Source of the DNA: Paucilactobacillus hokkaidonensis JCM 18461
GTDB taxonomy: Bacteria > Bacillota > Bacilli > Lactobacillales > Lactobacillaceae
DNA: 64,000 bases
Reading direction: 5' to 3'
NCBI RefSeq assembly: GCF_000829395.1
Contig: NZ_AP014680.1
Span: 496,001 to 560,000 of the forward strand
Shown: positions 95 through 60,119 of the stretch, in pieces
How positions within the stretch are numbered: the first letter of the stretch is position 1
Layout: each line of letters begins with the position of its first letter
Program-made: the position numbers and the translations under genes
Notes under the pieces: generated by a model
Databases searched by the model: none
Told to the model about the DNA's origin: nothing
What the model saw: only the letters and a program-made list of their open reading frames with translations

Positions 95-420
95 TGGAAA
101 TAAAAGAATTTAAAGCACGTTCTAATCACATCCGGGCTGCATACCATCAATTAGAGGTTAAGCAAGATGGACATCCTTGGAACACGGAACAAGACGCATT
201 AGCATTTTTAACAGATGCTGCGTTAGTTGGACGATTAGTCATGGATAAGCAGGGGAGTTGGCCAAGCGAGGACAATATGTTCTCACTTGATTATAAAATC
301 GCCGAAAGTATGTGGTGGCTGAATTCAATTGCGACGGCTAATAATATTGATATTGAAACGGCACTGAAATCATTTTTAGAAGCACGAGAAAAGTATACGA
401 GTGTGAACAACCGCGATTAG
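94..420 (+). CDS. MazG-like / nucleotide pyrophosphohydrolase-related protein
   Basis: A small, mostly helical acidic protein of 108 residues. The C-terminal half (DYKIAESMWWLNSIATANNIDIETALKSFL, described here from residue about 66 to 95 in pieces: KIAESMWWL, then DIETALKSF) looks like the helical core of short MazG-like proteins of lactobacilli, which belong to the all-alpha NTP pyrophosphatase group. A clear EExxE metal site is not obvious, so catalytic activity is uncertain. The ATG overlaps the stop of the upstream gene. The last seven codons (encoding SVNNRD and stop) lie inside the left arm of the palindromic element that starts at 399, so the native C-terminus has been replaced or extended by the element. 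Confidence 0.45.
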   Translation: MEIKEFKARSNHIRAAYHQLEVKQDGHPWNTEQDALAFLTDAALVGRLVMDKQGSWPSEDNMFSLDYKIAESMWWLNSIATANNIDIETALKSFLEAREKYTSVNNRD

Positions 421-620
421 ATAACGGAGTGTAACGTAATAATGACCCTTACATGGTGATTTACCATGTAAGGGTCATTATTTTGTTATACGTAGTTATC
501 TGCGGTTGCCGAACACGTTTATTCTATCAAAGTAGGAAGAATGGTGAATTTCCATGTAAGGGTCATTATTTTGTTACACTCCGTTATCTGCGGTTGCCGA
601 ACACGTTTACTCCATCAAAA
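399..620. repeat. Composite palindromic element, copy 1 (with duplicated right arm)
   Basis: The element begins with GAGTGTG at 399 inside the upstream gene. Left arm 401-456 pairs with right arm 464-517: GTGT with ACAC, CAACCGC with GCGGTTG, GATAAC with GTTATC, and an inner hairpin AATAATGACCCTTACATGG with its complement. The inner hairpin half plus right arm is repeated 88 bp downstream (552-608). The second right arm, with ACACTCCGTTATC, matches the left arm even better than the first. Right ends read CACGTTT followed by an AT-rich ATnAAA flank. This fills the gap between the MazG-like gene and livJ; the rest of the gap (620-855) is AT-rich leader or promoter DNA with no gene. Confidence 0.85.
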
Positions 621-855
621 TAGGAAGAATAGTAATCTGTATTTGGCCATATAAAAAGTAACCGTTTGGATTCTATCCCTTTTTATGAGAAAAATTTAAT
701 TTAAAATAAACTTTATAAATAGAACGTTGTAACCGCCACCAGTTCATAAAAGCTTCAAAAACAATTTGACTAATGATATGTTTTTATGATAGTTTATTAG
801 AAAATGATTAGAAGATTTAATCATATTTTAATTTTAATACATAGGGGATGTTGGT

Positions 856-2043
856 ATGCGCGCAAAGAAGTTAATGAGGGTACTGGGAACAGTAATGTTA
901 GCCAGTACCTTAGTCTTAGCAGGCTGTAGTAGTTCTGCTGCAAGTGGCGGTAATAAACAAAGTGGTAACACGATCAAGTTAGGTGGAAATTTTGAATTAT
1001 CCGGCTCCGCAGCTGCGTATGGGGAAGCAATGCAAAATGGTGTGAAGTTAGCCGTTAAGCAGATCAATGCTGATGGAGGAGTTAAAGTTGGCAGTAAGAA
1101 GATGAAGATCAAGTTAATCCAAAAGGATAACAAGTCGGATAATTCTTCTGCGGCATCTGTTGCAACTAATTTAGCAACTACAAGCAAGGTCAATGCAGTT
1201 GTCGGACCAATTACGTCTGGAGCTGGTTTAGCTGCGTTACCAAACTATACAAAAGCAAAAGTACCATACATAACACCAGGTGGAACGCAAGATTCGTTAA
1301 CGGTTCAAAAAAATGGCAAGGTTCAACCATATATGTTCCGTTCTTGTTTTGAGGATAGTTACCAAGGTAAAGCGTTAGCTAAATACGTTTATGGCAATAT
1401 GAAGTTAAAGAAGGTCGCAATTTTAGGTGACAAATCAACTGATTATGCACAAGGGCTAACGAAGGCATTTAAGAAACAATTTAAGGGCCAAGTAGTTTCT
1501 ACACAGTATTATCAATCTGGTGACAAAGACTTTAATACGTTATTAACAAAGTTAAAGAGCAAGGATTTTGATGCCATCTTTGTTCCAGGTTACTACTCAG
1601 AAGCTGGATTAATTGTTAAACAAGCACGACAAATGGGGATTACTCAACCAATTGTTGGTGCCGATGGATTTGCTGATCCTAAACTAGTTAAAATTGCTGG
1701 CAAGAAAAATGCTACCAATATTTACTACACAACTCATTTCGATGCAAAAGCTAATACTAATGCTAAAGCAACGGCTTATATGAAGGCTTACAAGTCCCAA
1801 TATCATCAAGATGCCGGTACTTTTGATGCATTGGCATATGATGCAACGTACATGTTTAAAGATGCCATTGAAAACGAAAAATCGGCTGACTCAACCAAGA
1901 TTGCAACCGGTTTGAGTAAGTTGAAAAACTTCAAGGGTGTCACAGGTACGATCTCAATTGACAAGAAACATAACCCACAAAAACAGGTTATTATTGCAAA
2001 AGTTGTCAATGGAGAAGAGCAAAGCGCAACGGCAGTAAAATAG
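856..2043 (+). CDS. livJ: Branched-chain amino acid ABC transporter, substrate-binding lipoprotein
   Basis: The extracytoplasmic receptor for leucine/isoleucine/valine that delivers substrate to LivHM. The first 24 residues form a lipoprotein signal: positive start (MRAKK), hydrophobic core and lipobox LAGC, so Cys24 is lipidated and anchors the protein on the outer face of the membrane. The remaining roughly 370 residues have the periplasmic-binding-protein type 1 (Leu/Ile/Val receptor) layout, including IKLGGNFELSGSAAAYGEAM and a hinge region. ATG 856 is preceded by AGGGG. The TAG stop at 2041-2043 shares its G with the palindromic element that follows. A 400-bp gap with that element separates it from livH, which would allow receptor and permease to be made in different amounts. 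Substrate specificity is inferred from the family and operon. Confidence 0.9.
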   Translation: MRAKKLMRVLGTVMLASTLVLAGCSSSAASGGNKQSGNTIKLGGNFELSGSAAAYGEAMQNGVKLAVKQINADGGVKVGSKKMKIKLIQKDNKSDNSSAASVATNLATTSKVNAVVGPITSGAGLAALPNYTKAKVPYITPGGTQDSLTVQKNGKVQPYMFRSCFEDSYQGKALAKYVYGNMKLKKVAILGDKSTDYAQGLTKAFKKQFKGQVVSTQYYQSGDKDFNTLLTKLKSKDFDAIFVPGYYSEAGLIVKQARQMGITQPIVGADGFADPKLVKIAGKKNATNIYYTTHFDAKANTNAKATAYMKAYKSQYHQDAGTFDALAYDATYMFKDAIENEKSADSTKIATGLSKLKNFKGVTGTISIDKKHNPQKQVIIAKVVNGEEQSATAVK

Positions 2044-2168
2044 AGTGTGGAGCAAGGCGACTAGATTTTGAGCATTAGCGTGACTTCCCAAATGATCCCG
2101 AACTTGGGATCGTTTGGGAAGTCGGGCTAAGCGGAAAAATCTGCCTTGCGGAACACGTTTTAGAAATA
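2043..2168. repeat. Composite palindromic element, copy 2
   Basis: Begins GAGTGTGG using the G of the livJ stop codon. Outer arms: GTGTGgagCAAGGC (from 2044) pairs with GCCTTGCggaaCAC (2142-2156). A middle pair AGATTTT/AAAATCT and GAGCATTAGC/GGCTAAGC is followed by an inner hairpin CTTCCCAAATGATCCC / GGGATCGTTTGGGAAG (2084-2122). It ends CACGTTTTAGAAATAGA. There is no long T-run, so it may act as an RNA 3'-end structure rather than a classic terminator. Copy 7 after clpC is the same subtype. Confidence 0.85.
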
Positions 2169-2214
2169 GAATGTGGAGCAGGCACATTAGTCATCTGCGT
2201 CTGGAAAAACGTTT
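2169..2214. repeat. Collapsed remnant of a palindromic element
   Basis: A 46-bp stretch starts GAATGTGGAGCAGGC and ends GTCATCTGCG...AAAACGTTT. These are the left end and right end motifs of the elements joined without the inner hairpin (GTCATCTGCG is also in copy 6). It abuts copy 2. Confidence 0.45.
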
Positions 2215-2290
2215 CTGCTAGAGTGCATAATGAATATTCAAAAAAGCAATTAAGTTACAGCAAGTAAAAAACAATTAATTTCCAAATTCT

Positions 2291-2409
2291 GAGGAGTACA
2301 ACTAAAAGGGTGGTTTCGTTTTGGTGCGTGTAGGCAATAAAAAACTAAAAATTTTAGTTAATTGTCTATAAGTACCAGAACTGAAGCTCAACTTTTAGTT
2401 GTGCTCCTC
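2291..2409 (+). promoter_or_regulatory. Structured leader with nested inverted repeats upstream of livHMGF
   Basis: GAGGAGTACAACTAAAAG (2291-2308) is complementary to CTTTTAGTTGTGCTCCTC (2392-2409) over 18 positions with one G-U. A second dyad, AACTAAAAATTTTAGTT, lies in the loop at about 2343-2359. AAAGGGTGG at 2305-2313 resembles the T-box core but no specifier hairpin or ACCGCG follow-up is visible. The 3' arm ends 35 bp before the livH start and near its ribosome site, so control of livH translation or transcription is plausible but unproven. Confidence 0.4.
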
Positions 2410-2444
2410 TATTGATTAAATGATAAGAATGGAAGTGAAGAACT

Positions 2445-3323
2445 GTGAGCACTGTTTTGCAACAACTTGTTAATGGGCTCTCACTAGGAAGTATTTATGC
2501 TTTGCTAGCGCTAGGGTACACCATGGTATATGGAATTATTAAACTGATTAACTTTGCGCATGGTGATATTTATATGCTGGGAGCCTTTTGGGGCTATTAC
2601 GTAATTAACCAATTACATTTTAACTTTTGGCTTGCACTAGCATCATCAATGCTATTTTGTGCCCTTGTTGGAGTAGTTATTGAATATTTGGCTTATCGGC
2701 CACTGAGAAATTCACCCAGGATTGCAGCATTGATTACCGCAATCGGAGTATCTTTCTTACTTGAAAACGGCATGGCTTACATGTTTAGTTCCAATGTTCG
2801 TAGTTTTCCGCAGGTCATGAAGGTAACCCAATATCACTTAGGATCCGTTTCAATTTCCAATATTCAAATATTGATATTAGTCGTTTCAATTGTTTTGATG
2901 ATCTTATTACAGCTGATTGTACAGCGTACTAAGATGGGGAAGGCCATGCGGGCTGTTTCAGTCGATCCTGACGCTGCTCAATTGATTGGGATCAACATTG
3001 ATCGTACCATTTCATTTACATTTGCATTAGGTTCAGCAATGGCCGGAGCAGCGGGAGTCCTGATCGGATTGTATTACAATTCGATTGATCCATTGATGGG
3101 GATGACACCAGGGATTAAAGCGTTCGTTGCTGCTGTGTTAGGTGGTATCGGATTAATTCCAGGAGCCGCCATTGGTGGATTTGTCATTGGATTACTAGAA
3201 ACTTTGATGCAATCAATCGGATTTTCTGCCTACAAGGATGCCGCAGTTTACGCTGTTTTGATTATTATTTTGTTGATTAAACCAGCTGGGATTCTAGGTA
3301 AGAAAATCAAAGAGAAAGTGTAG
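2445..3323 (+). CDS. livH: Branched-chain amino acid ABC transporter, permease LivH
   Basis: One of two membrane subunits of the branched-chain amino acid importer; 292 residues with about eight hydrophobic segments. INFAHGDIYMLGAF near residue 35 and the C-terminal GGIGLIPGAAIGG region are typical of LivH-type permeases. The start is GTG 2445 with GGAAGTGAAG just upstream. Its TAG stop directly abuts the livM ribosome site. It is the first gene of the livHMGF-acuB block and pairs with LivM to form the channel driven by LivG and LivF. Confidence 0.92.
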   Translation: MSTVLQQLVNGLSLGSIYALLALGYTMVYGIIKLINFAHGDIYMLGAFWGYYVINQLHFNFWLALASSMLFCALVGVVIEYLAYRPLRNSPRIAALITAIGVSFLLENGMAYMFSSNVRSFPQVMKVTQYHLGSVSISNIQILILVVSIVLMILLQLIVQRTKMGKAMRAVSVDPDAAQLIGINIDRTISFTFALGSAMAGAAGVLIGLYYNSIDPLMGMTPGIKAFVAAVLGGIGLIPGAAIGGFVIGLLETLMQSIGFSAYKDAAVYAVLIIILLIKPAGILGKKIKEKV

Positions 3324-3332
3324 GTGGCAAAC

Positions 3333-4295: not shown

Positions 4296-4297
4296 TC

Positions 4298-5074: not shown

Positions 5075-5781
5075 TGTTACTACAAGTAGAAGACTTATCT
5101 GTTAATTATGGCGTTATTCGCGCGGTCAAAGGAGTTAGCTTTGAAGTTAATGAGGGTGAGATTGTCTCGCTGATTGGAGCTAATGGAGCTGGTAAAACGA
5201 CCATTTTAAAAACTATCTCAGGATTAATGAAGCCTTCTGGCGGCAAGATTATCTATAACGGTCATGAAATTCAAAAGCAAAAGTCACAAAAAATTGTGGC
5301 AGGCGGTATTTCTCAGGTACCAGAAGGACGACGAATTTTTTCAGGGTTAACAGTTCTTGAAAATTTACAAATGGGAGCTTTTTTACGAAAAGATCGGGAT
5401 GCACTAAAAGCAGACTATCGCGAAGTTTTTGAACGTTTTCCAGTGTTGGAAGAACGTAAAAATCAAGATGCAGCAACACTTTCAGGGGGTGAACAACAAA
5501 TGCTTGCGATGGGTCGTGCCTTGATGGCGAAGCCAAAGTTATTGTTGATGGATGAACCATCAATGGGATTAGCTCCAATATTTATTAATGAAATTTTTGA
5601 TATTATTCAGGCAATCAAACAACAGGGGACTACTGTATTATTGATTGAACAAAATGCCTCAAAAGCGTTGGCAATTGCTGATCGAGGTTACGTATTAGCT
5701 ACTGGTAATATTCTCATGACTGGTACTGGAACGCAATTACTGGGAAATAAAGACGTGCAAAAAGCATATTTGGGAGGTTAA
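5074..5781 (+). CDS. livF: Branched-chain amino acid ABC transporter, ATP-binding protein LivF
   Basis: The partner ATPase to LivG. Walker A is GANGAGKT (about residues 36-43), the signature is LSGGEQQ, Walker B is LLLMDEPSMG and the H-loop area is LLIEQNAS (LivF proteins typically have Q here). Length 235 is normal. Start and stop both overlap neighbours by one base, so livG, livF and the CBS-ACT gene are translationally coupled. Confidence 0.92.
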   Translation: MLLQVEDLSVNYGVIRAVKGVSFEVNEGEIVSLIGANGAGKTTILKTISGLMKPSGGKIIYNGHEIQKQKSQKIVAGGISQVPEGRRIFSGLTVLENLQMGAFLRKDRDALKADYREVFERFPVLEERKNQDAATLSGGEQQMLAMGRALMAKPKLLLMDEPSMGLAPIFINEIFDIIQAIKQQGTTVLLIEQNASKALAIADRGYVLATGNILMTGTGTQLLGNKDVQKAYLGG

Positions 5782-6407
5782 TGACAATGAGTGTTGCAGA
5801 TTATATGACGCAAGATTTAGTAACAGTTCGACCAACGACACGAATTAATGATGCTGTTGACTTAATGAAAAAAAATGATATTCATCGCTTACCAGTACTA
5901 GATAGCGGGCGATTAGTTGGATTAATTACGGAAGGAATTATTCAAAGTGCATTACCATCAAAAGCGACGTCGTTATCTGTTTTTGAGGCTAACTATTTAT
6001 TAAACAAGACGACCGTTGCAGATGTAATGGAAAAGGATGTTCAAACAATTTCACCAGATGCCGTATTGGAAGATGCGATTTATGCTATGCGAAAGTATAA
6101 TATCGGTGTTTTACCAGTAGTTAATGGTGCCGAATTAGTAGGTATTATCACGAATAATGACATTTTCGATGCTTTTTTAAACATTTCAGGCTATGGCCGT
6201 GGTGGAACCAATGTGACGGTGTATGTTGAAAAAGATGAGTTAGGATTTATTGCTAAATTGGGCGAAACATTGGCGAGTCACAAATACAATATTTTGACGT
6301 TGATGGTGACAAAAAGAGTTCACGATCAAGCAATTGAAATCCATGTGGATAGTGAGGACACAGTGGGGGTAAAAAATGCATTGACGGCAGCTGGTTTCAA
6401 AGTATAG
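5781..6407 (+). CDS. CBS-CBS-ACT protein (AcuB-like) of the liv operon
   Basis: Two CBS domains (about residues 5-60 and 75-130) are followed by an ACT-like domain (about 145-208), the AcuB arrangement. CBS pairs bind adenine nucleotides and ACT domains often bind amino acids, so a sensor or regulator role for branched-chain amino acid uptake is a reasonable inference from its place as the last gene of the operon. No catalytic motif is seen. ATG 5781 overlaps the livF stop; ATG 5787 (M3) is an equally good start behind GGGAGG. The TAG stop shares its G with the palindromic array that follows. Confidence 0.8.
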   Translation: MTMSVADYMTQDLVTVRPTTRINDAVDLMKKNDIHRLPVLDSGRLVGLITEGIIQSALPSKATSLSVFEANYLLNKTTVADVMEKDVQTISPDAVLEDAIYAMRKYNIGVLPVVNGAELVGIITNNDIFDAFLNISGYGRGGTNVTVYVEKDELGFIAKLGETLASHKYNILTLMVTKRVHDQAIEIHVDSEDTVGVKNALTAAGFKV

Positions 6408-6739
6408 AGCGTGAGCTGCCACGATTTGACTCCGTGGTATAAGAGAAGAATCCCAATTACTTTCGATTTATGAAAGTGGTTGGGATTCTTCTCTTATACG
6501 TTAGGAGTCAGTGGCAGCGAACGCGTTTCCGCAATAAAAATAGTCACGACCCCAATTACTTTCGATTTATGAAAGTGGTTGGGGTTCTTCTCTTATACGT
6601 TAGGAGTCAGTGGCAGCGAACGCGTTTCCGCAATAAAAATAGATCCGATCCCAATTACTTTCGATTTATGAAAGTGGTTGGGATTCTTCTCTTGTACGTT
6701 AGGAGTCAGTGGCAGCGAACGCGTTTTTACAATAAAAAG
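6407..6739. repeat. Composite palindromic element, copy 3: tandem array with 99-bp period
   Basis: Begins GAGCGTG using the G of the upstream stop codon. The left arm GCGTGaGCTGCCAC pairs with GTGGCAGCgaaCGC. The inner hairpin AAGAGAAGAATCCCAATTAC / GTGGTTGGGATTCTTCTCTT follows a GACTCC/GGAGTC pair. The inner hairpin plus right arm is then repeated twice more (CAATTACTTTC anchors at about 6454, 6553 and 6652: period 99). Only the first unit has a left arm. It ends CGCGTTTTTACAATAAAA. Because 99 is a multiple of 3, an open frame of repeated 33-residue units runs through it; I do not regard that as a gene. Confidence 0.9.
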
Positions 6740-6787
6740 AAATCAAAAAACAAGCCCAGGCAAGAACACCAGAACTTGTACCTAAAA

Positions 6788-8215: not shown

Positions 8216-8383
8216 AATTTTCAGTACTCCTTTTTAAATATTATTCATACGACAATTGATTACACTATCATAAAAAAAATTTGCTCGTAAGTTTTATTTA
8301 TTGCTTATAAAGCGATTTGTGAATGTAAACGGTTTAGACTGAGAGACTTTCTCATAAATGTCTCTATTTGCTTAATGGACTGT

Positions 8384-9711: not shown

Positions 9712-9785
9712 GGTCCGTTGGTCTAGCTGGTTAGGACGCCTGCCTGTCACGCAGGAGATCACGAGTTCGAGTCTCGTACGGACCG
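9712..9785 (+). tRNA. tRNA-Asp (GTC)
   Basis: Acceptor GGTCCGT pairs with ACGGACC, D arm GTCTAGCTGGTTAGGAC, anticodon loop CTGTCAC (GTC), T arm GAGTTCGAGTCTC. CCA is not encoded. A palindromic array begins nine bases later and its first hairpin may serve as the 3' end of the transcript. Confidence 0.97.
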
Positions 9786-9793
9786 TAAAAAAA

Positions 9794-10226
9794 AGCGTGA
9801 GCTGCCACGATTTGACTCCGTGGTATAAGAGAAGAACCCCAATTACTTTCGATCTGTGAAAGTGGTTGGGGTTCTTCTCTTATACGATAGGAGTCAGTGG
9901 CAGCGAACGCGTTTCTGCAATAAAGATAGACCGTGATCCCAATTACTTTCGATCTGTGAAAGTGGTTGGGGATCTTCTCTTATACGATAGGAGTCAGTGG
10001 CAGCGAACGCGTTTCTGCAATAAAGATAGACCGTGATCCCAATTACTTTCGATTTATGAAAGTGGTTGGTGATCTTCTCTTATACGATAGGAGCCAGTGG
10101 CAGCGAACGCGTTTCTGCAATAAAGATAGACCGTGATCTCAATTACTTTCGCTTTATGAAAGTAGTTGGGATTCTTCTCTTATACGATAGGAGTCAGTGG
10201 CAGCGAACGCATATCCGCAATTAAAA
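9794..10226. repeat. Composite palindromic element, copy 4: tandem array with 100-bp period
   Basis: Same subtype as copy 3. Left arm GCGTGaGCTGCCAC occurs once, then four units of inner hairpin plus right arm at exactly 100-bp spacing (AATTACTTTC at 9841, 9941, 10041 and 10141). Each unit contains a complementary pair around GAAAGTGGTTGG and ends GTGGCAGCGAACGCGTTTCTGCAATAAAG-like. The units differ by a few substitutions (for example GGGGTTC, GGGGATC, GGTGATC), so they are diverging. This and tRNA-Asp fill the gap from 9644 to 10247. Confidence 0.9.
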
Positions 10227-11166: not shown

Positions 11167-11173
11167 TGAAACT

Positions 11174-27089: not shown

Positions 27090-27117
27090 CATTTATATAG
27101 CCGAAAAACAGAGTGAG

Positions 27118-27189
27118 AAAAAATACTAAGATTAGAGGCATAGGATAACCCGACAGGGTGATCTTATGCCTCTAATCTTAGTATTTTTT
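27118..27189. terminator. Large bidirectional terminator
   Basis: AAAAAATACTAAGATTAGAG... pairs perfectly over about 25 bp with ...CTCTAATCTTAGTATTTTTT around a 20-nt loop. It sits between the convergent VIT and CDF genes. The flanks (GAGTGAG left, TAGTGG right) only weakly recall the palindromic elements. Confidence 0.85.
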
Positions 27190-27199
27190 CCTAGTGGTT

Positions 27200-43093: not shown

Positions 43094-43374
43094 GAGTGGA
43101 AAATAAGACGATTAGATTCTGAGCATACTCCGTTGTCCAAAGAACTAACCGCTAAAGCAGTAAGTTCTCATGGCAGCCTAGATTAACGAATGATCCGTGT
43201 TTTGGATCGTTTGTTAATCGTAGCTAAGCGGAAGCCATTATTACTTGCCGGTTTTCGGCTTGCGACTTATACTTGCTGGGCTTCGGCTTAGTATAATCGA
43301 CAACGAAGCGTAGCGTAGTAGTAATATGGACATCGAAGAGAATCTGTCTTATTTTCCACGTTTTAGCAATAAAA
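43094..43374. repeat. Composite palindromic element, copy 5 (large, multi-hairpin)
   Basis: Outer arms GTGGAAAATAAGAC (43097 on) and GTCTTATTTTCCAC (ending 43359) are complementary over 14 bp without mismatch, and AGATTCT/AGAATCT continues the stem. Inside are AGAACTaac/AGTTCT and GATTAACGAATGATCC / GGATCGTTTGTTAATC hairpins, and a right-hand module with GCCGGTTTTCGGC and GTATAATCGACAACGAAGCG that recurs in copy 6. It ends CACGTTTTAGCAATAAAA. It fills most of the gap 43087-43473. Confidence 0.85.
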
Positions 43375-43387
43375 GTTCGTAAATGAT

Positions 43388-43432
43388 AAAAAGGGCACAG
43401 CAAAAAAAGTAGTTTTTGCTGTGCCCTTTTTT
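43388..43432. terminator. Bidirectional terminator
   Basis: AAAAAGGGCACAGCAAAAA / TTTTTGCTGTGCCCTTTTTT hairpin between convergent genes. Confidence 0.92.
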
Positions 43433-43473
43433 GGAAATATTGCTATCAATATTTAGAGTGTGGCTGCATATTT

Positions 43474-44817
43474 CTAATTTTTAAATGAATGTACTGGAGC
43501 TGGGATTCTACCACCACGGGCAACGAAGTCAGTTGGCTGACTTTGATTAACATGCATAATGGGTGCATGACCGAATAGCCCACCAAAATTGATGTCTTCA
43601 CCGACAGATTGACCGGTTGCTGGAATAATTCGAATTGCAGTTGTTTTGTTATTAATCATTCCAATGGCGGCTTCGTCTGCTAATAAACCGCTAATGGTTG
43701 CTGCAGTTGTATCACCAGGAACGGCGACCATGTCTAAACCGACTGAACAGACAGCAGTCATGGCCTCCAATTTTTCGAGACTTAACTTACCAGCTTGGAC
43801 TGCTTTTATCATTCCTTGATCTTCTGAGACGGGGATGAAAGCACCAGATAAACCACCAACGTGTTCACAGGCCATAATGCCACCTTTTTTAACTGCATCG
43901 TTTAGTAATGCCAGTGCAGCAGTAGTTCCAGGAGCACCAACACTTTCTAAGCCAATCTCTTCTAAAATTTCAGCAACTGAATCACCCTGTGCTGGGGTTG
44001 GGGCAAGTGATAAATCAACAATCCCAAATGGCACATTCAAACGTTTTGCGGCAATGGTTCCCACGAACTGACCAACGCGGGTTACCTTGAAGGCTGTTTT
44101 TTTAATTGTCTCAGAAACAATGTCAAAAGGCTGACCTTTGACTTGTTCTAAAGCACGTTTGACAACACCAGGACCACTAATTCCCATATTAATAACACAG
44201 TCTGCTTCGCCAACCCCATGAAAGGCGCCAGCCATAAATGGATTATCTTCGACGGCATTAGCAAAAATAACTAAATTCATGCATTTCAGGGGATCAATTG
44301 CGGCAATATCTTTGACTACTTGGCCCATTTGGGCAACGGCATCCATATTGATACCGGCACGGGTAGAGCCAATGTTAACAGAACTACAAACTTTGGTTGT
44401 CTCACTGAGTGCCTCGGGAATTGAATCAATTAATTTATAGTCGCCACTTTGATAGCCTTTTTGAACGAGTGCTGAAAAGCCGCCAATAATATCGATTCCG
44501 ATGTCAGTGGCTGCTTTATCAAGGATTTTAGCGTAAGCTACATAATTATCGGTATTAGCTGCTGCGGCAACCATTGCAATTGGAGTGACGGAAATTCGTT
44601 TATTGACGATTGGAACACCGTATTCCATTTCAATGTCATTCGCCACTTTAACTAAATCACGCGCTTTGGTAGTTATTTTTTGATAAATTCTTTGGCAAGC
44701 CTTTTTGGGGTCGCTATCAATGCAGTCAAATAGTGATATTCCCATTGTGATGGTTCGAATATCAAGGTGTTCTTCATCAATCATTTGGAGGGTTTCTTGA
44801 ATTTGTTTAGTTTCCAT
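43474..44817 (-). CDS. UPF0210 / PFL-family protein
   Basis: 447 residues of the UPF0210 (DUF711) family: [28 protein letters not shown] at the start, then [16 protein letters not shown] and [16 protein letters not shown] (residue landmarks). The protein is cytoplasmic. Family members are distantly related to glycyl-radical-type folds but have no proven reaction that I know of. It sits 11 bp downstream of an ACT-domain gene, a pairing seen across Firmicutes, which suggests amino acid-responsive control of one by the other. Confidence 0.9.
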
Positions 44818-45347: not shown

Positions 45348-45363
45348 GACATTAATTAATGTC
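45348..45363. promoter_or_regulatory. Palindromic operator upstream of the YhgE/Pip gene
   Basis: A perfect 16-bp palindrome GACATTAATTAATGTC, 50 bp upstream of the ATG and downstream of a TTGACT at 45305. The form suits a TetR-type repressor; the binder is unknown. Confidence 0.45.
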
Positions 45364-45412
45364 CTACACTAATTTTTGGAAAAACTGTATGATAAAGAAA
45401 AGAGGAAGAGGA

Positions 45413-48199
45413 ATGCTTAGCAAGTTTTGGAGCCCACGGGGACGCCGCATTGCTTATATTGTTTTGGCATGTTTAATCCCGGCAGTTTTATTAATCGCTA
45501 TTTTTAATTTTATTCAGTACGAACAAAATGCTGCAACCAAAAATATTCCAGTTGCAGTCGTGAATAATGACCAATCAGCTACTAATAATGGTCAAAAAAT
45601 CAACATGGGACAACAGGTAGTCAATACCTTGAAAAAGGATCATCAAGTTAAATGGGAGTTTGTTAGTTCGGCAGCGGCCAAGAAACAATTGGCTGATGGG
45701 GATGCATATTTAGAGATCGAATTACCAAAGGACTTCTCAAAAAATGCTACTACAGCATTGGCTAAACATCCTAAAGTAAGTCTAATTAAGCTTTACCAAT
45801 CAAAGAAAAATAACTTTCTATCAACGATGGTCACCAATACCGTTGCTGATACCGTTCAAGCACAGGTCAAGACGAAAGTCCAAAAAGTTTATAGTGAAAG
45901 CCTGCTGAGTGGTATTAAGAAGCTTGGTGATGGCACTAAACAGGCCGCTACAGGGACAACTCAATTGAACGATGGGATGGTTCAATTGAAGGATGGTAAT
46001 AAAGAGGTTGCTCGTAATCTTGATTTATTAGCAACCAAGATGGTTACATTTTCAACTGGTGCGAAAACATTAGCTACTGGTGTCAATACTTACACTGCTG
46101 GAGTCGATACATTAGCGTCAGCTAACAAACAAATGCTGGCTGGATTGCAACAATTGCAAACTAGTGCAGAACCGTTGGTGAGTGGAACCGCACAATTAGC
46201 TACTGGCTCAAAAACATTGGCTAGCGGTGTCCAGCAATATACTGGTGGTGTGACTAGCGTGACGTCGGCTAACAAACAAGTGCTAGCTGGATTATCACAA
46301 TTGAATGGACAAACTGGTGCATTGACTGACGCGACTAACCAGTTGGCTAGTGGGTCATCCAGTCTTTTAGCTGGGACACAAACCTTTAAATCACAGTTAA
46401 ATGGTGGGATTAACCAGATTCAAAGTGGAATTTCAGGAAGTGCACTAATTGGAACCACAGTTGCTGATATGAAGACGGCCCGTCAAAAATCTGACACAGT
46501 TCAATCTGAAATGACTAGTTTGAAGTCAGGCATGGCCATGCTTGACCAAGTATTGCCAATGTTGAGCTCATTGAGCTCAGCACAAGGGAAAATCACTAGT
46601 TTACAAAACCAATTAAAATTAATGGCGACAATTGCGCCAAGTACAGATAAGGTTAAAACCGATCAGGCAGATGCTAACAGTAAACAAAAGGCGTTATCAG
46701 ATGCCATTGCTGCATTACCTGATGACGATGCTAATAAAGCTAATTTACAAGCTTTAGCAAAGCAAAGTACAACAGCGACTACTAAAATTGGTACGGATGC
46801 GCAGAGCTCTGCCAATGCGTTTAGTGTTGTTAACAAACAAGCAGGGTCTGCGTTGACTGAATTTAGTGATGAACTGTCAGCAGCCTCGTCATTAGATACT
46901 GGAAAGATTAGTCAATTGATGGCTTCAATTCAACAACTTGAAACTGATGCAGACGATTTATTTAATTATACGGATAATAATTTATTATCTGACGAAAAAA
47001 TTAGTGAATTAGAGCATAGTACTGATTCAATTACGGCCGGGTTAACACAGTTACAAACAACTGCTAATGGTGGCTTAGATAGTTTGATAACCGGGTCTAG
47101 TGCATTATCTGTTGGAAACGGTAAGCTAAATGCCAGTGCTCCAAGTTTAGCTGGTGGTATCAAACAATTATTTACTGGTGAACAACAAATTGTATTGGGT
47201 GGTAATCAGCTAGATACTAATACGGCTAGTTTAGTAGCTGGCGCATTGACATTAGCTAGTGGTAATTCAACGTTGGCAGCTTCAGCACCAGCACTAATCA
47301 GTGGGGTTGACCAGTTAGTTAGTGGTGAACAACAAGTTAATGACGGAACCAACCAATTAACTGCTAATAGTGCAAAATTGAATAGTGGTACTAATCAGCT
47401 TGTGGATGGTGCTAATCAAGCACAATCTGGGGCTAGTCAATTAGCTGCTGGTTCAAATCAAGTTCAAACTGGTTTGAATACTGCTGCTGATGGGGTCGCA
47501 ACGTTGAACTCTAAATTAAAAGATGGTGCCGATCAAATTGGAACAGTCAATGACGGTTCAAGTAATGTGAATCACATTGCTACACCGATTAGTAACAAGG
47601 AAATGAGTGCTGATCAAGCCGATTTGAAGAATGTTTTTGCACCGTTGGTATTAGCATTGGTACTATTCTTAGCGGCAGTGGTAACTCAATTGGGATTATT
47701 CATGCCCAACCGAAAACAAAAAACATTGATGCAAGAACCATTGGTCGCAATTGGACTAACTGCATTGGCACAAGCAATTATTGCCGACGTTGTCGTCGCA
47801 ATGCTTGGTGTGACAGTTTCTAATTGGTTCGGATTAGTATTCTTTACCATTATAGTGTCGTTACTCTTTACTATGATTTGCATGCTTTTATATCATATGT
47901 TTGGTCGTGTGGGAGTATTATTCGCGGTCTTGCTGGCATTAATTCAAGTAATTGTAACTGGCCAAGTATTTCCAAATGCAATGTTATCCGGATTCTATCA
48001 AGCCGTCGGCAGTATTTTGCCAATGACTTACGCAATTCATGGCTTTGAAGCTTTGATCAATGTTGCTGGTTACAGCGTCTGGGGTGCAATTGCACTGTTG
48101 ATTATTTTCACTGCTGTGTTGGGTGGAATTGCTTATCTGATTGATTTGGTATTGAAACGGCGAAGTGATAATGTGGATTTACCAGGAAATGATGAGTAA
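45413..48199 (+). CDS. YhgE/Pip-domain membrane protein
   Basis: 928 residues. One N-terminal membrane segment (about 12-34), an extracellular region of roughly 730 residues, and five or six C-terminal membrane segments (FAPLVLALVLFLAAVV onward). The extracellular part is rich in repeats of the form L-x(2,3)-G-x(2)-Q-L-x(2)-G (for example TNQLVDGANQ, ASQLAAGSNQ), probably long helical coiled-coil or stalk. The ends have ABC-2-like membrane topology. It belongs to the YhgE/Pip family (phage infection protein in Lactococcus). ATG 45413 behind GAGGAAGAGG is preferred to the ATG at 45359, which overlaps the operator. Confidence 0.88.
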   Translation: MLSKFWSPRGRRIAYIVLACLIPAVLLIAIFNFIQYEQNAATKNIPVAVVNNDQSATNNGQKINMGQQVVNTLKKDHQVKWEFVSSAAAKKQLADGDAYLEIELPKDFSKNATTALAKHPKVSLIKLYQSKKNNFLSTMVTNTVADTVQAQVKTKVQKVYSESLLSGIKKLGDGTKQAATGTTQLNDGMVQLKDGNKEVARNLDLLATKMVTFSTGAKTLATGVNTYTAGVDTLASANKQMLAGLQQLQTSAEPLVSGTAQLATGSKTLASGVQQYTGGVTSVTSANKQVLAGLSQLNGQTGALTDATNQLASGSSSLLAGTQTFKSQLNGGINQIQSGISGSALIGTTVADMKTARQKSDTVQSEMTSLKSGMAMLDQVLPMLSSLSSAQGKITSLQNQLKLMATIAPSTDKVKTDQADANSKQKALSDAIAALPDDDANKANLQALAKQSTTATTKIGTDAQSSANAFSVVNKQAGSALTEFSDELSAASSLDTGKISQLMASIQQLETDADDLFNYTDNNLLSDEKISELEHSTDSITAGLTQLQTTANGGLDSLITGSSALSVGNGKLNASAPSLAGGIKQLFTGEQQIVLGGNQLDTNTASLVAGALTLASGNSTLAASAPALISGVDQLVSGEQQVNDGTNQLTANSAKLNSGTNQLVDGANQAQSGASQLAAGSNQVQTGLNTAADGVATLNSKLKDGADQIGTVNDGSSNVNHIATPISNKEMSADQADLKNVFAPLVLALVLFLAAVVTQLGLFMPNRKQKTLMQEPLVAIGLTALAQAIIADVVVAMLGVTVSNWFGLVFFTIIVSLLFTMICMLLYHMFGRVGVLFAVLLALIQVIVTGQVFPNAMLSGFYQAVGSILPMTYAIHGFEALINVAGYSVWGAIALLIIFTAVLGGIAYLIDLVLKRRSDNVDLPGNDE

Positions 48200-48213: not shown

Positions 48214-48409
48214 TTTCTATTTAAAACGTGCTCGCGACCACACTCACTTCGCTACGATGTCGATTGTACTATGCCGAAAACCGGCAAGTACAAGTCGCAG
48301 ATGACTACATGTAACAATAAAATGGTACTTAGGAATGGTCACAAGTCGACCATTCCTAAGTACCATTTTTTCGTTACATTCCGTCGTCTAACCGTGGTCA
48401 TTTGCACTC
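48214..48409. repeat. Composite palindromic element, copy 6 (inverted orientation)
   Basis: Read on the minus strand: GAGTGCaaatGACCACGG, then GACGACGGAATGTAACG, an inner hairpin AATGGTACTTAGGAATGGTC with its complement, GTTACATGTAGTCATCTGCG, a module with GCCGGTTTTCGGC shared with copy 5, and the right end GTGGTCgcgaGCACGTTTT. Terminal GTGC pairs with GCAC and GACCAC with GTGGTC. The GACGACGGAATGTAACG motif matches copy 1 (GATAACGGAGTGTAACG). It fills the gap between yhgE and ctsR; its left end lies 70 bp upstream of the ctsR -10. Confidence 0.85.
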
Positions 48410-49002: not shown

Positions 49003-51504
49003 ATGAACAACCTATTTACACCAAGTGCAAAAAATGTTTTGGTATTAGCTCAAGAACAAGCTAAGTACTTTAAGCACCAAGCAGTGGGTACAGAACATCT
49101 ATTATTAGCATTAAGCATTGAACAAAATGGCATCGCAAATAAAGTATTACAACAATTTACGGTTACTGAAGATGACATTCGAGAAGAAATTGAACGATTT
49201 ACCGGCTATGGCACACTAAGCAATGTCGATAAGGATACTTATCTTCCTTATTCACCAAAGGCCAAAGAAGTGTTAGCAGTTGCTGGGGATGAGGCTAAAC
49301 GTTTGGGAGCCGTTAAAATCGGTACTGAACATCTGTTATTGGCTTTATTAAGTGATGAAAGCATTTTGTCTTCACGTATTTTGATGAATTTAAACGTTGA
49401 CTTGGTGCAAACACGCAAGATTATTTTGCGTCGTTTAGGGGTTACCGATACACCCAAACGTCACCAAGCTAATCGGGCTAAGACAGCCCAGCAACAACCA
49501 GAAGGAACACCAACTTTGGATTCGCTGGCACGTGATTTAACGCAAAGTGCTCGTGAAGATAAAATGGATCCCGTTGTCGGGCGGGAGCAAGAAGTTCGAC
49601 GAGTTATCCAAATTTTAAGCCGTCGCACTAAAAACAACCCGGTTTTGATCGGTGAACCAGGGGTTGGTAAAACTGCAATTGCTGAGGGCTTAGCACAACG
49701 AATCGTGGCTGGAAATGTTCCTGAAGACATGGCTGGCAAACGAATTATGATGTTAGACATGGGCTCACTCGTTGCGGGTACTAAATATCGTGGTGAGTTT
49801 GAAGATCGTTTAAAAAAGGTGATTGATGAAATTTATCGTGATGGGCAAGTCATTTTGTTCATTGATGAATTACACACGCTAATCGGTGCTGGGGGTGCTG
49901 AAGGTGCAATTGATGCATCTAACATTTTGAAACCGGCATTAGCACGTGGAGAGTTACAAACTATTGGTGCTACAACATTAGATGAGTATCAAAAATATAT
50001 TGAATCAGATGCAGCATTAGAACGACGTTTTGCAACTGTCCAGGTTGATGAACCAACAGAAAACGAATCGATTGCTATCCTTAAAGGGCTGCGTAGTCGT
50101 TATGAAGAACATCACCATGCGGAAATTACCGATGAAGCGGTTGAACAGGCAGTTAAATTATCAGCTCGTTACATTAGTGATCGTTTCTTACCCGATAAGG
50201 CCATTGATTTAATGGATGAGGCCGGCGCCAAAGTACGAATTGATGCACAAGACAAACCTTCAAAGCGTTCTAAACAAGCTGATAAACTAACTAAGTTAAG
50301 AGCACAAAAAGAAACAGCCATTGAATCGCAAGATTTTGATTTAGCTGCTAAACTACGACAGCAAGAGTTAAAATTAAAAAATAAATTGGAACAACAAGTT
50401 GCCGGGGATGATGATGAAAAACCGCATTATGATTTACAGGTAACGGAAGAAGACGTTGCTCAAGTTGTGGCAGAGTGGACTGGAATTCCATTGACACAGT
50501 TACAAAAAAGCGAAAGCGATCGTTTAGTGAATCTGGAAAAAGTACTTCATGAACGTGTAATTGGTCAATCAGAAGCCGTTTCTGCGGTGTCACGGGCAAT
50601 TCGACGGGCCCGAAGTGGATTGAAAGATCCAAATCGTCCCATTGGTTCATTTATGTTCCTTGGACCAACCGGTGTTGGAAAAACAGAACTAGCTAAAGCT
50701 TTGGCAGAAGCAATGTTTGGTTCAGAAGACAATATGATCAGAGTCGACATGTCTGAATATATGGAAAAATACAGCACAAGTCGGTTGATTGGTGCTGCAC
50801 CAGGGTATGTTGGTTATGATGAAGGTGGACAATTAACCGAAAAAGTTCGGCAACATCCTTATTCAGTAGTTTTACTTGATGAAGCTGAAAAAGCCCATCC
50901 GGACGTTTTTAATTTACTGTTACAAGTACTTGATGATGGTTACTTGACGGATGCAAAGGGACGGCGAGTTGATTTTCGAAATACTATTTTGATTATGACT
51001 TCTAACCTTGGTGCAACGACTTTACGTGATGAAAAGGAAGTTGGCTTTGGTGCCAAGGACGTTCAAGCTGATTACAAGGCAATGTCATCAGCAATTATGG
51101 AACAATTAAAGCTGCATTTCAGGCCGGAATTTTTGAATCGAATCGATGAGACAGTTGTGTTCCATTCATTAACGAAACCAGAATTACATCAAATTGTTAA
51201 ATTAATGTCCAAACAAGTGATCAAACGAGTTGCTGAACAAGCAATTAACGTAAAGATTACATCGGCAGCAATTGATGTCGTTGCCGACGCTGGATTTGAT
51301 CCAGAATACGGTGCACGACCAATCCGCCGAGCATTGCAAACACAAGTTGAAGACCGATTGAGCGAGGCAATGCTTGCCGGTGACATCAAAATTGGTGATA
51401 CGGTAACAATTGGTGCACGCAACAGTAAGATTAGACTTAGTGTTGTCGACGATCAGCAGAATTCAAGATTAATTGAGGACGGGAGTGTGAAGCAAGGCGG
51501 TTAA
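49003..51504 (+). CDS. clpC: ATP-dependent Clp protease ATP-binding subunit ClpC
   Basis: A Hsp100 unfoldase that feeds proteins to ClpP; 833 residues. Two N-terminal Clp repeats (1-145), AAA-1 with GEPGVGKT and Walker [11 protein letters not shown], a UVR-type middle region ([20 protein letters not shown], about 427-446), then AAA-2 with [14 protein letters not shown] and [13 protein letters not shown]. The last six codons (SVKQGG) and the stop lie inside the left arm of palindromic element copy 7, so the native C-terminus has been replaced. ATG 49003, 16 bp after ctsR, behind AAGAGGGG. Confidence 0.96.
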
Positions 51505-51613
51505 GCTCTGAGCATTAGCATAATATATTTAATAATCCCTGAGCTTGGGATTATTGAATATATTGGGCTAAGCGGAAGAGCTTGCCTTGCGAAACACGTT
51601 CAATCCATAAAAG
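51483..51613. repeat. Composite palindromic element, copy 7
   Basis: Same subtype as copy 2. GAGTGTG at 51483 lies inside clpC. GTGTGaaGCAAGGC pairs with GCCTTGCgaaACAC; AGCTCT/AGAGCT and GAGCATTAGC/GGCTAAGC extend the stem; the inner hairpin is AATATATTTAATAATCCC / GGGATTATTGAATATATT. It ends CACGTTCAATCCATAAAA. Confidence 0.88.
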
Positions 51614-51617
51614 CAAA

Positions 51618-51652
51618 GAAAGGGTGCAGCAAAAATTGCTGCACTCTTTGTT
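51618..51652 (+). terminator. Terminator of ctsR-clpC
   Basis: AAAGGGTGCAGC / GCTGCACTCTTTG hairpin with a T-rich tail. Confidence 0.8.
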
Positions 51653-51751
51653 TGAAAATAAAACAATTTCAACCAGTGCAAATCTGCTAAATATTGTTAA
51701 CCAAAGTGTTGGAAAAGGTGAGTCAAACACCACCAAAGCTCGTTAACAACC

Positions 51752-51773: not shown

Positions 51774-51866
51774 CAAAAGTCAAAATTCAGGTGATAATTG
51801 AACTTGCAATTGGGAACAAGAAGAATGAAAATGGAGTATGCGAGTTATAACTAAGGGGTAGATGAA

Positions 51867-52460: not shown

Positions 52461-52578
52461 TCAGCATGGTGTTCACTGCTTGACTTATCAATAAAAAAAA
52501 CTTATACTACTTTCTGTATGTAACTGTGAGTTTATTTGAACCGTGTGATCTATTGTCCATACGATTCTTCATATGAAA

Positions 52579-52612
52579 CCAAAGACAGCAATGCTGTTTT
52601 TGGATTTTTTTT
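52579..52612 (+). terminator. Terminator between the TetR gene and rpoB
   Basis: CCAAAGACAGC / GCTGTTTTTGG hairpin followed by ATTTTTTTT. CTCAAAAG (52613) and CTTTTGAG (52661) flank the AT-rich rpoB promoter region downstream. Confidence 0.8.
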
Positions 52613-52702
52613 GCTCAAAAGTTGATAAAATTGCAATTTGTAATCAAATTGTAATATTTCTTTTGAGATAAACGCACTGAATAAATTTGAGAGGTGAACA
52701 GC

Positions 52703-56302: not shown

Positions 56303-56344
56303 TTCGCAAATAATTGCAGTTATTAAGTTAAGGAGGATCATCCT

Positions 56345-59300
56345 TTGATTGATGTCAATAATTTTGAAAGCATGCAAATCGGTCTGGCATCACCAGATAA
56401 GATTCGCAGTTGGTCGTATGGGGAAGTAAAAAAGCCCGAAACAATCAACTACCGAACTTTGAAACCAGAACGTGACGGCTTGTTTGATGAACGAATTTTC
56501 GGACCTACTAAGGACTGGGAATGTGCTTGTGGTAAGTACAAGCGGATTCGTTATAAAGGTGTTGTGTGTGATCGTTGTGGGGTTGAAGTTACTCGTTCTA
56601 AAGTACGTCGTGAACGGATGGGCCATATTGAATTGGCTGCACCTGTAACTCATATTTGGTACTTTAAGGGTATTCCAAGTCGAATGGGTCTTGTACTAGA
56701 CATGAGCCCACGCGCTTTGGAAGAAATCATTTACTTTGCATCATATGTTGTCTTAGATGGTGGTGATACACCACTTGAAAAGAAACAACTATTGTCAGAG
56801 CGTGATTATCGTGATAAAAAGTTGGAATATGGCAACAAGTTCAGTGCTGAAATGGGTGCTGAAGCTATTCGAAAGTTGCTTGAAGAAGTTGATCTTAAAA
56901 AAGAAGCTGCTGAATTAAAGGAACAATTGAAAGAGGCTTCTGGCCAAAAACGGACGCGTGCCGTTCGTCGTTTGGACATTTTGGAAGCATTCCTCAAGTC
57001 AGGTAACAAGCCTGATTGGATGGTAATGGATGTTGTCCCAGTTATGCCTCCAGATCTACGACCAATGGTTCAGTTGGAAGGTGGCCGTTTTGCTACATCT
57101 GACTTGAATGATTTGTACCGTCGAGTTATCAACCGTAATAACCGTCTCAAACGTTTACTAGATTTGAACGCTCCTGGAATTATTGTTCAAAACGAAAAGC
57201 GGATGTTACAAGAGGCCGTTGATGCTTTAATTGATAATGGTCGTCGTGGACGTCCAGTTGCCGGTCCCGGTAACCGTCCATTGAAGTCACTATCTCATTT
57301 ATTAAAGGGTAAGCAAGGACGATTCCGTCAAAACTTACTTGGCAAGCGGGTTGATTATTCTGGCCGTTCCGTTATCGATGTTGGTCCTTCATTACGAATG
57401 AACCAAATGGGCCTTCCTGTGCCAATGGCAATGGAATTGTTCAAACCATTTATCATGAAAGAATTGGTTAAACGGGATTTGGCTTCTAACATTAAGAATG
57501 CTAAGCGTAAGATCGATCGTAAAGATGATGATGTGTATGATGTTTTGGAAGATGTGATTAAGGAACACCCAGTGTTACTTAACCGAGCACCTACATTGCA
57601 TCGTTTGGGAATTCAAGCTTTTGAGCCAGTTTTGGTATCAGGAAAAGCAATGCGAGTTCATCCACTTGTGTGTGAAGCTTACAATGCCGATTTTGATGGT
57701 GACCAAATGGCCATTCACGTGCCTTTATCTGATGAAGCTCAAGCAGAAGCACGGTTATTAATGCTTGCTGCGGGTCATATTCTAGCTCCTCGTGATGGAA
57801 AACCAGTGGTTACACCATCACAAGATATGGTTATCGGTAACTATTACCTGACAACTGAAGATGCTGGTCGTGAAGGCGAAGGAATGATCTTCAAGGATAG
57901 TGACGAAGCCCGTACAGCATATCAAAATGGTTACGTTCATTTGCATTCACGTGTTGGTGTCTTGGCTTCTTCAATGGATGCTAAGCCATTTACTACTGAA
58001 CAAAAGAGTAAGGTATTGATGACAACTGTTGGAAAATTGATTTTCAATGATATTTTACCAACAGATTTCCCATACCTGAACGAACCAACTAACGATAACT
58101 TAACTGATAATATTAGTGACAAGTATTTCTTGGCTCCTGGTGAGGATCTAAAAGCACATTTTGCTGATGCACCATTGATTCCACCATTCAAGAAAGGCTT
58201 TCTATCAGATATTATCGCTGAGGTTTACAAGAAGTATAAGGTTACGGCCACTTCATTATTGTTGGACCGAATGAAAGATTTAGGTTATGACGAATCAACT
58301 ATTTCTGGCTTAACAGTGGGTATCTCAGATATCACTGATTTAAAAGAAAAACCTGAGATTATTGCTAAGGCACATAAAGAAGTTGCCACCGTTTCTAAGC
58401 AATTCCGTCGTGGATTGATTACTGACGATGAACGATATGAGCGTGTTATCGGTATTTGGAATGATGCTAAAGATGAAGTACAACAAAAACTGATTGATAG
58501 CATGGATCTGCATAACCCCATCAATATGATGAGTGATTCCGGTGCCCGTGGTAATATTTCAAACTTTACTCAATTAGCAGGTATGCGTGGATTGATGGCT
58601 GCTCCTAATGGTAAAATCATGGAATTACCGATCATTTCAAACTTCCGTGAGGGATTAACTGTGTTGGAAATGTTTATTTCTACCCATGGTGCCCGTAAAG
58701 GTATGACTGATACGGCCCTTAAAACGGCCAACTCAGGTTACTTGACTCGGCGATTAGTCGATGTTGCGCAAGACGTCATTGTTCGTGAAAAGGATTGTGG
58801 AACTGATCGTGGTTTGAAAGTTACATCAATTACTGATGGTAATGAAATGATCGAACCTTTATATGATCGTATTTTAGGCCGATACACGATGAAGTCAGTT
58901 GCTAATCCTGATACGGGTGCCCAGATCATTGGTAAGAACATGATGATTGATGAAGATGCTGCGCAAGCAATTATCGATGCTGGTGTTACTGAAGTTACTA
59001 TTCGTTCAGCATTCACATGTAATACTAAACATGGTGTTTGCGAACGTTGTTACGGCCGTAATGCTGCTACTGGTGACAAAGTTGAAGCCGGTGAAGCTGT
59101 CGGAACCGTTGCTGCTCAATCAATTGGTGAACCAGGAACGCAATTAACAATGCGTAACTTCCATACTGGTGGTGTGGCTGGTAACGAAGATATTACTCAA
59201 GGACTTCCTCGTATTCAAGAAATTGTTGAATCACGAAACCCTAAAGGTAAATCTGAAATTACTGAAGTTACAGGTACAGTTGAATCAATCGAAGAAAATC

Positions 59301-59983
59301 CAGCTGAACGGACCAAAGAAGTTACAATCAAGGGTGAAACAGATACCAGAACGTACACTTTGCCTATCATTTCTCGGATGAGAGTTGCTGAAGGTGACTT
59401 CATCCATCGTGGAACTGCGCTTAATGATGGATCAATTGATCCTAAAGAGTTGTTGCAAGTTCGTGATGTCTTATCTACTGAAACTTACCTGTTAGGTGAA
59501 GTTCAGAAGGTTTACCGTATGCAAGGGGTAGAAATTCTAGATAAGCACGTGGAGATCATGATTCGTCAAATGATGCGCAAGGTTCGGATCATGGATCCCG
59601 GTGATACAGATGTATTGCCAGGTGCCTTGATGGATATTGATGAATTCCGTGATGATAATTATAAGACACTGATTGCTGGTGGCGTTCCAGCTACTGGCCG
59701 TCCAGTAATCTTGGGTATCACGAAAGCCGCACTTGAAACTAACAGTTTCTTGTCAGCTGCTTCATTCCAAGAAACAACCCGTGTGTTAACTGATGCTGCT
59801 ATTCGTGGCAAAAATGACCCATTAGTTGGTTTGAAGGAAAATGTTATCATCGGGAAGATTATTCCTGCTGGTACAGGAATGGCTGAGTATCGTGGTATTA
59901 AGCCTAAAGAAGTTGGCGTTGCGTCAACTGAAGGGGTTTACTCAATTAGCGATATTGAGAAACAGATGAAAGAAAAAGAGTAG
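56345..59983 (+). CDS. rpoC: DNA-directed RNA polymerase beta' subunit
   Basis: 1212 residues. TTG 56345 behind AAGGAGG. Zinc finger 1 has the CxCG...CxxCG cysteines at about 60-78; the catalytic [12 protein letters not shown] holds the three Mg2+ aspartates; the bridge helix and trigger loop follow; a second zinc site is at [13 protein letters not shown]. The stop TAG shares its G with palindromic element copy 8, and the protein ends IEKQMKEKE. Confidence 0.98.
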
Positions 59984-60119
59984 AGTGTGAAAAGCCACGT
60001 TTAAATGTCGTGGTGTAACGTAAAAAGAGCAGGTACGATTCGAATTCTAAATCGTACCTGCTCTTTTTACGTTGCACAATAGACATTTGCGGCTTTTTAC
60101 ACGTTTGATCAATTAAAAT
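59983..60119. repeat. Composite palindromic element, copy 8
   Basis: Starts GAGTGTG on the G of the rpoC stop. GTGTGAAAAGCC pairs with GGCTTTTTACAC, AAATGTC with GACATTT, and an inner stem GTAACGTAAAAAGAGCAGG... with its complement over about 26 bp. It ends CACGTTTGATCAATTAAAA. The inner hairpin includes TTTTTACG and could terminate both rpoBC and the convergent peptidase gene. Confidence 0.88.

Follow-up and report, generated by a model that had tools for sequence, protein, structure and literature searches.

The intergenic regions of Paucilactobacillus hokkaidonensis JCM 18461 carry a dispersed family of large palindromic elements that keep their shape while their sequence changes. Eight of them lie in the 64,000-nucleotide (nt) stretch analyzed here, i.e., positions 496,001 to 560,000 of contig NZ_AP014680.1, which we call the window and whose numbering is used below unless stated otherwise. 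An initial annotation of this stretch had described eight palindromes with complementary arms and co-varying terminal bases, and we found all eight at the sites noted, including the listed arm pairs and terminal tetranucleotide pairs. They belong to a shape-conserved family of elements at gene ends that is real, extends across the order Lactobacillales, and is absent from Rfam. With moderate confidence, we favor a reading in which the family is mobile and its members would be structured elements of mRNA 3' ends, taking the place of transcription terminators or carrying them along.

The initial annotation had held that the eight palindromes share only their termini, which turned out to be too narrow a view. 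From the outside inward, they have in common an outer helix P1 (GYGN/NCRC, 4 base pairs [bp]), an internal loop that is usually G/A-rich, and a second helix P2 (7-8 bp). Next come a 4-nt bulge confined to the 5' arm and a third helix P3 (6-7 bp), and beyond another internal loop the layout ends in P4, a long variable hairpin. This structure of ca. 117-270 nt is bordered by RAG on the left and by GTTT on the right, the latter followed by an A-rich region whose core resembles CAATAAAA. In place of the three subtypes first proposed, we distinguish about five genome-wide (A, A', B, C, and D; a classification of our own). The left-arm bulge of 4 nt is present in seven of the eight minimum-energy folds from the window; the exception is the element at 48225-48409, which has the arms but carries an extra stretch in its 3' arm and folds differently. 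The first internal loop is found in six of the eight, while P1 and P2 are continuous in the elements at 43094 and 59983. Across a set of 250 predicted folds, which includes 105 copies from relative G002 (taken from the best 109 of its 125 matches), the bulge is exactly 4 nt long in 217, and one-sided bulges of at least 3 nt sit on the 5' arm in 227 of 228 cases. The first bulge base is a G in 183 of these 217 copies and the remaining bases are variable; the mean predicted folding energy of the 250 copies is -66.7 kcal/mol. Copies from other species, from AT-rich Enterococcus to GC-rich Lacticaseibacillus, mostly keep this layout in their folds, though it is blurred in several minimum-energy folds (e.g., at loci L284 and L276). 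The 4-nt bulge and the G/A-rich loops probably serve as a site where a protein binds or bends the element.

The conservation of shape rather than sequence, which the initial annotation had already suspected, is evident from strong covariation within the host genome. When 35 of the host's own copies were aligned by sequence only (MAFFT), 96.2% of the cells were paired compared to 72.0% after shuffling, the covariation score was 0.660 compared to 0.199, and 20 of 23 pairs showed two-sided changes. Sliding the partner by 1-3 columns lowered the score to 0.08-0.12. These copies had been preselected by a scanner demanding paired P1 and P2, so that P3 and P4 are the unbiased part of the alignment, and two-sided changes were found in all seven P3 pairs. 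The first outcome that the initial annotation had named as refuting its view, i.e., copies without covariation, thus did not occur. Across genera, 59 distinct copies gave 96.3% paired cells (67.8% after shuffling) and a score of 0.730 (0.196) in an alignment fitted to the model structure and drawn from 60 matches; these include one that lies opposite another match on the complementary strand and one that is truncated at the end of its locus.

The same pattern holds at individual sites. We compared 20 pairs of copies of at least 57% identity at orthologous or near-orthologous sites of a sister species (flanks 71-89% identical; seven pairs matched via one flank, one of which may join paralogues). 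Besides 615 unchanged paired positions, there were 184 two-sided changes that are still paired and only 21 that are broken, compared to 70 still paired and 86 broken among the one-sided changes. Recent copying of identical arms, the other refuting outcome named in the initial annotation, can therefore be ruled out as the cause of the matched arms, because the compensated changes are present in a second species.

A covariance model (R1) built from the 35 own-genome copies found at least 145 copies in the host genome of 2,400,586 bases when its best 150 candidates were scored, including six of the eight window elements (it misses those at 43094 and 48225), while a BLAST search with a single element gave 46 matches. 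All 145 copies are on the chromosome of 2,277,985 bases and none on the two small contigs (together 122 kb). We extended this covariance-model search from the host to its relatives, as the initial annotation had suggested. Among 395 Lactobacillales genomes from 80 genera, at least 99 genomes and 33 genera have matches (best eight candidates per genome scored); for the host's own family, represented by 151 genomes from 40 genera, the numbers are at least 83 and 24, respectively (best 22 candidates per genome scored). Among 30 genomes with named loci, for which the best 112 candidates each were scored, nine were positive, i.e., Paucilactobacillus vaccinostercus (18 matches; its RpoC is the closest named one to that of the host, with 97%), Secundilactobacillus similis (102), Levilactobacillus fuyuanensis (68), Liquorilactobacillus sucicola (31), Weissella paramesenteroides (30), W. 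thailandensis (24), Latilactobacillus fragifolii (15), Enterococcus ureilyticus (6), and Lacticaseibacillus baoqingensis (5). The 21 negative genomes include the tested Bacillus, Staphylococcus, Leuconostoc, and Tetragenococcus genomes and four of Enterococcus. R1 is weak on the latter genus with one of five tested genomes positive, and the true occurrence is underestimated because the E. casseliflavus genome was negative despite a plasmid of this species matching the E. ureilyticus copy by blastn. Many lactic acid bacteria thus carry tens to more than 100 copies of these hairpins each.

The initial annotation had left open whether structure is selected in DNA or RNA, and wobble pairs bear on this question. 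We counted isolated G-T and A-C oppositions in an alignment that scores both alike, for which 115 of the 145 copies could be parsed (30 without anchors were skipped), and found a ratio of 131:28. For 72 non-redundant elements the ratio is 73:22 (binomial p 1.5e-7), with 38:10 in sense copies and 25:10 in antisense copies. This excess of G-T over A-C implies that one single strand is selected, and it disfavors a strand-symmetric DNA cruciform, which predicts equal numbers of both. The selected single strand is most likely the transcript, since the elements lie in sense orientation after stop codons as described below, which points to RNA rather than DNA; single-stranded DNA remains compatible with the wobble counts themselves.

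This placement is based on 120 clusters of elements, of which 111 have one orientation and full context (with the window elements at 43094 and 48225 added by hand). Forty-six of these lie codirectionally in sense between their neighbors, 40 between convergent genes, 17 antisense to both neighbors, and eight between divergent genes, so that 86 of the 111 clusters follow a gene in sense orientation. In 45 of these 86 the element starts between -4 and +5 nt from the stop codon, and in 18 of the 45 it overlaps the stop by one base, i.e., the G of TAG is also the initial G of the element; in six more of the 86, the stop ends 22 nt inside the element. Of the 66 genes that end no more than 6 nt from an element, 39 have TAG as stop codon, compared to 68 of the 237 genes whose ends are over 60 nt away (p 9e-6).

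The elements at these gene ends differ in their terminator content. In a survey of the 86 clusters situated downstream of a gene 3' end, run without a control of its own, an internal terminator was predicted at P4 in 20/20 clusters of subtype C, 7/8 of B, 15/21 of A', 8/20 of D, 4/14 of A, and 2/3 unclassed ones, with those of A' being borderline at -8 to -9 kcal/mol. A downstream terminator followed in 5/20 (C), 4/8 (B), 12/21 (A'), 7/20 (D), 6/14 (A), and 0/3 (unclassed), and a part of these downstream terminators are copies of the element's right half. In A' copies, the terminator hairpin behind the element has arms that resemble the element's left end, and in the minimum-energy fold of locus L382 (1501-1680), the right arm of the terminator forms pairs with the left end; an attenuator-like switch through pairing of this type is possible.

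At the corresponding sites of relatives that lack an intact element, a fixed detector found a terminator in 10 of the 13 cases at hand compared to 6 of 100 coding control windows (the G002 sites of 9794 and 43094 were outside this set). The three sites missed by the detector are that of 6407 in G002, where a hairpin with a weak T-run is seen by eye, and those of 48214 and 2043 in relative G042. The clearest exchange is at chromosome position 325445, where the host has an element and G002 aligns with a plain terminator between what are apparently the same two gene ends. Behind rpoC, the host carries one subtype and L. fuyuanensis another, while P. vaccinostercus and S. similis have plain terminators. 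Behind an open reading frame (ORF) of 833 amino acids that we take to be clpC, relative G101 carries a variant of its own that was picked up by the model as well, and G002 shows by eye an apparent eroded remnant together with a terminator. Different subtypes also lie between similar flanks of two species at the host's sites 2106671, 2123188, and 498043 (window 2043), implying that replacement of one element by another occurs as well. Compared to their counterparts at these three sites (L333:1500, L334:1500, and L343:1500), the interior looks as if it had been exchanged.

Regarding function, a role as terminator or 3' stabilizer is likely, and the elements would act in the nascent or finished transcript. 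The inner hairpin P4 of subtype C and mostly also of B would itself terminate transcription, A' copies often seem to travel with an attached terminator hairpin, and the ca. 50-bp hairpin of A and D may block 3' exonucleases and thereby define or protect the mRNA end. Binding or bending by a protein at the 4-nt bulge and the G/A-rich loops would explain why these parts persist while the arms drift. The family would spread within genomes and subsequently evolve in place by compensatory change.

Several observations weigh against such a 3'-end role. The copies are related, so the binomial p of the G-T excess overstates their independence, and the excess among antisense copies would also fit inheritance or a role of one DNA strand. 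Twenty-five of the 111 clusters, including the window element at 48225, face the 5' end of the left gene. With internal terminators in only 4/14 A and 8/20 D clusters and borderline ones in A', the support for termination does not extend to the whole family. The exchange with plain terminators failed at the detector in three of 13 sites, and since terminators are expected at gene ends anyway, it identifies these sites as transcript ends without showing that the element took over termination. Compensated changes can also arise by template-switching correction between arms, of which there is a trace at 541-589, and no target-site duplication that could be told apart from tandem arrays was found for the host copies. 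A more ambitious version of the 3'-end reading, which we put forward only tentatively, would see an order-wide class of structured RNA 3' ends that moves as a portable terminator module in place of native terminators and whose bulge and G/A loops bind a dedicated partner (a protein, an RNase, or the terminating ribosome). At the stop codon, the end of translation, the formation of transcript ends, and the spread of the elements would then be coupled.

Much of what we know about the spread of the family could also be read as the behavior of selfish DNA similar to miniature inverted-repeat transposable elements (MITEs) or REPs, with a transposase for single-stranded DNA hairpins or an attC-like recombinase reading shape and bulge, and stop-codon placement reflecting no more than tolerated insertion; we find this rather unlikely. 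Identical 129-nt copies at chromosome positions 325445 and 1255794, A' elements with their terminator sitting (by eye) at the P4 apex of other elements (1263349-1263477 and 2192497-2192625), multi-element clusters (22 of 120, eight of them in mixed orientation), and a patchy occurrence (in genera g11 and g13, some genomes have no match and others at least 22) speak for spread within genomes. The recent copies at several loci that are expected of a MITE are thus present in the form of identical and nested copies. Right halves are moreover repeated in tandem units of ca. 90-130 nt in two genera (window 399-607, 6407-6725, and 9793-10217; locus L052, 13650-13900), and direct repeats are in excess (e.g., 14 compared to 2.5 expected) at offsets that tandem arrays may explain. 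In blastn searches, the Enterococcus copy matched 65 plasmid records (54 from Enterococcus, six from Lactiplantibacillus, and a single one from each of Lactococcus, Lacticaseibacillus, Escherichia, Pseudomonas, and Klebsiella), e.g., with an element 24 nt behind aspT on an L. plantarum plasmid. An A' copy matched one of 72,556 plasmids, an A copy no plasmid and none of 50,697 phages, and an L. fuyuanensis copy no plasmid. The strand polarity of the bulge and the G-T-rich antisense copies would suit selfish DNA, too. Yet the Y1 transposase profile (PF01797) has no match in the host genome with its 145 copies, though it matches in five of 14 control genomes, and none of these copies is on the host's two small contigs. 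A stop-codon peak and exchange with terminators would furthermore be unexpected from tolerance alone, and compensatory change persists at orthologous sites.

It is improbable that the family has a purely mutational origin, i.e., that template switching between arms during replication keeps quasi-palindromes matched in the absence of selection for shape. The locus at 399 does carry a sign of such a process, because the left arm is matched more closely by the second right half at 541-589 (90% over 49 nt) than by the first right half (85% over 39 nt), and the right arms of A' terminators resemble by eye the complement of the element's left end. But template switching would erase bulges and loops, while 217 of 250 folds retain the 4-nt bulge; it is strand-symmetric, in conflict with the G-T to A-C ratio of 73:22; and it leaves the stop-codon placement unexplained. 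Still less probable is that the elements give rise to a structured RNA liberated from the 3' ends of mRNAs (e.g., a substrate of RNase III or an RNA that binds a protein or ligand), termination being a side effect, given that a simpler 3'-end role already accounts for the placement, even if the long near-perfect duplex (mean -66.7 kcal/mol) and a bulge conserved irrespective of P4 terminator strength would fit.

Compared to known systems, the elements resemble intrinsic terminators in that they sit after stop codons, have a P4 hairpin with a U-tract in 20/20 cases of subtype C, and are exchanged with terminators in relatives, but they differ by nested P1-P3 helices, the fixed 4-nt 5' bulge, dispersed homologues, and many members without a U-tract. 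Integron attC sites are likewise conserved in shape, with extrahelical bases on one strand that confer polarity. The likeness to our one-sided bulge is one of analogy, and no cassette arrays were noticed, though no integrase search was made. ERIC, REP, and BIME sequences and MITEs are dispersed palindromic repeats that form the general comparison class, and REPs are associated with RAYT transposases. More than 100 intergenic palindromic copies, arrays, and nesting are shared with this class (for ERIC, according to PMC2267715), but in the present family the arms diverge with compensation. According to PMC3733652, REPs are 20-40 bp long with GTAG or CGTC tags; the absence of a Y1 transposase, a length of 117-270 nt, ends of RAG and GTTT, and the lack of either tag argue against a REP/RAYT identity. 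Similarly, the L. plantarum supermotifs (LPSM; Wels et al. 2009) are also intergenic, cruciform-like, and found in Lactobacillus, but they are 800-1000 nt long and specific to L. plantarum as summarized in PMC5643018, which rules out identity with a family of ca. 117-270 nt in many genera.

The claim that no named family fits stood for Rfam but probably not beyond it. Searching Rfam 15 with E up to 1 gave no match on any element of the window or of 16 loci (nine named species, two own); the nearest match was a sub-threshold one to P14 at 43354-43488 (E 0.025, 32/45 bits), mostly on the terminator hairpin behind the element at 43094. The Efa-1 repeat of Enterococcus faecalis, in turn, is probably a member. 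Petrillo et al. 2008 (PMC2267715) describe it as intergenic and 163 bp long, list 65 copies, and predict two stem-loops next to each other. The family's Enterococcus form occurs at nine places in one E. faecalis record, and a folded copy is intergenic with a large hairpin followed by a second one; this likeness of two adjacent stem-loops was compared by description only. In the passages of PMC2267715 considered, Efa-1 was described for one species and without function, stop-codon placement, or covariation. Among titles and abstracts of the open-licence literature we found no description of the family in Lactobacillaceae, and a term search of the available text of the P. hokkaidonensis genome paper gave no mention of such repeats.

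Lactobacillales comprise food, gut, and clinical bacteria, and if one family supplies the 3' ends of ca. 100 genes per genome, this would affect terminator annotation, read-through, mRNA stability, and genome rearrangement. It would also offer hundreds of natural shape-conserved variants for dissecting the parts of a terminator or 3' stabilizer, and the conserved one-sided bulge would be a specific handle on a putative binding partner.

Within the window, element spans are given from RAG to GTT and lie on the forward strand except for one. A scanner for A-GYGN ... NCRC-GTT with paired P1 and a 6-bp P2 recovered all eight, along with chance hits at three further places (mean 1.1 hits in 30 dinucleotide shuffles of the window). 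The subtype C element at 399-519 contains the stop of the upstream ORF (94-420) within its left arm and a predicted intrinsic terminator as P4; a tandem copy of its right half follows at 520-607, whose arm at 541-589 pairs with 419-467 (90%). The subtype A element at 2043-2159 has the G of the TAG stop in common with the ORF upstream (856-2043), and no terminator was detected either inside or downstream of it. A shared G of TAG is also seen for the subtype B element at 6407-6527 (ORF 5781-6407), which is followed by two tandem copies of the right half at 6528-6725 (ending at 6626 and 6725). The second subtype B element, at 9793-9913, starts 7 nt after the end of a tRNA gene (9712-9785), and right-half copies extend over 9914-10217 (ending at 10013 and 10113, plus one diverged copy).

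The subtype A' element at 43094-43362 has an inner part with an extra stretch and is followed by a predicted intrinsic terminator hairpin at 43387-43432 on the same strand. The one reverse-strand element, at 48225-48409, is C-like, antisense to both adjoining ORFs, and located ca. 25 nt behind ORF 45359-48199; like the A' element, it is outside the model's 145 matches. The subtype A element at 51483-51600 holds the stop of the presumable clpC ORF (49003-51504), with a predicted intrinsic terminator hairpin 3' of it at 51614-51654 (forward strand). The last element, a B/C intermediate at 59983-60105, shares the G of the rpoC TAG stop (ORF 56345-59983), and its P4 is a predicted intrinsic terminator. 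Two other structures in the window are separate from the family, i.e., a long near-perfect hairpin at 27117-27190 with 35-nt arms (94%) and a Lacto-rpoB RNA candidate at 52527-52585 that scored 38.4 compared to a gathering score of 40 and lies upstream of an ORF of 1202 amino acids read as rpoB.

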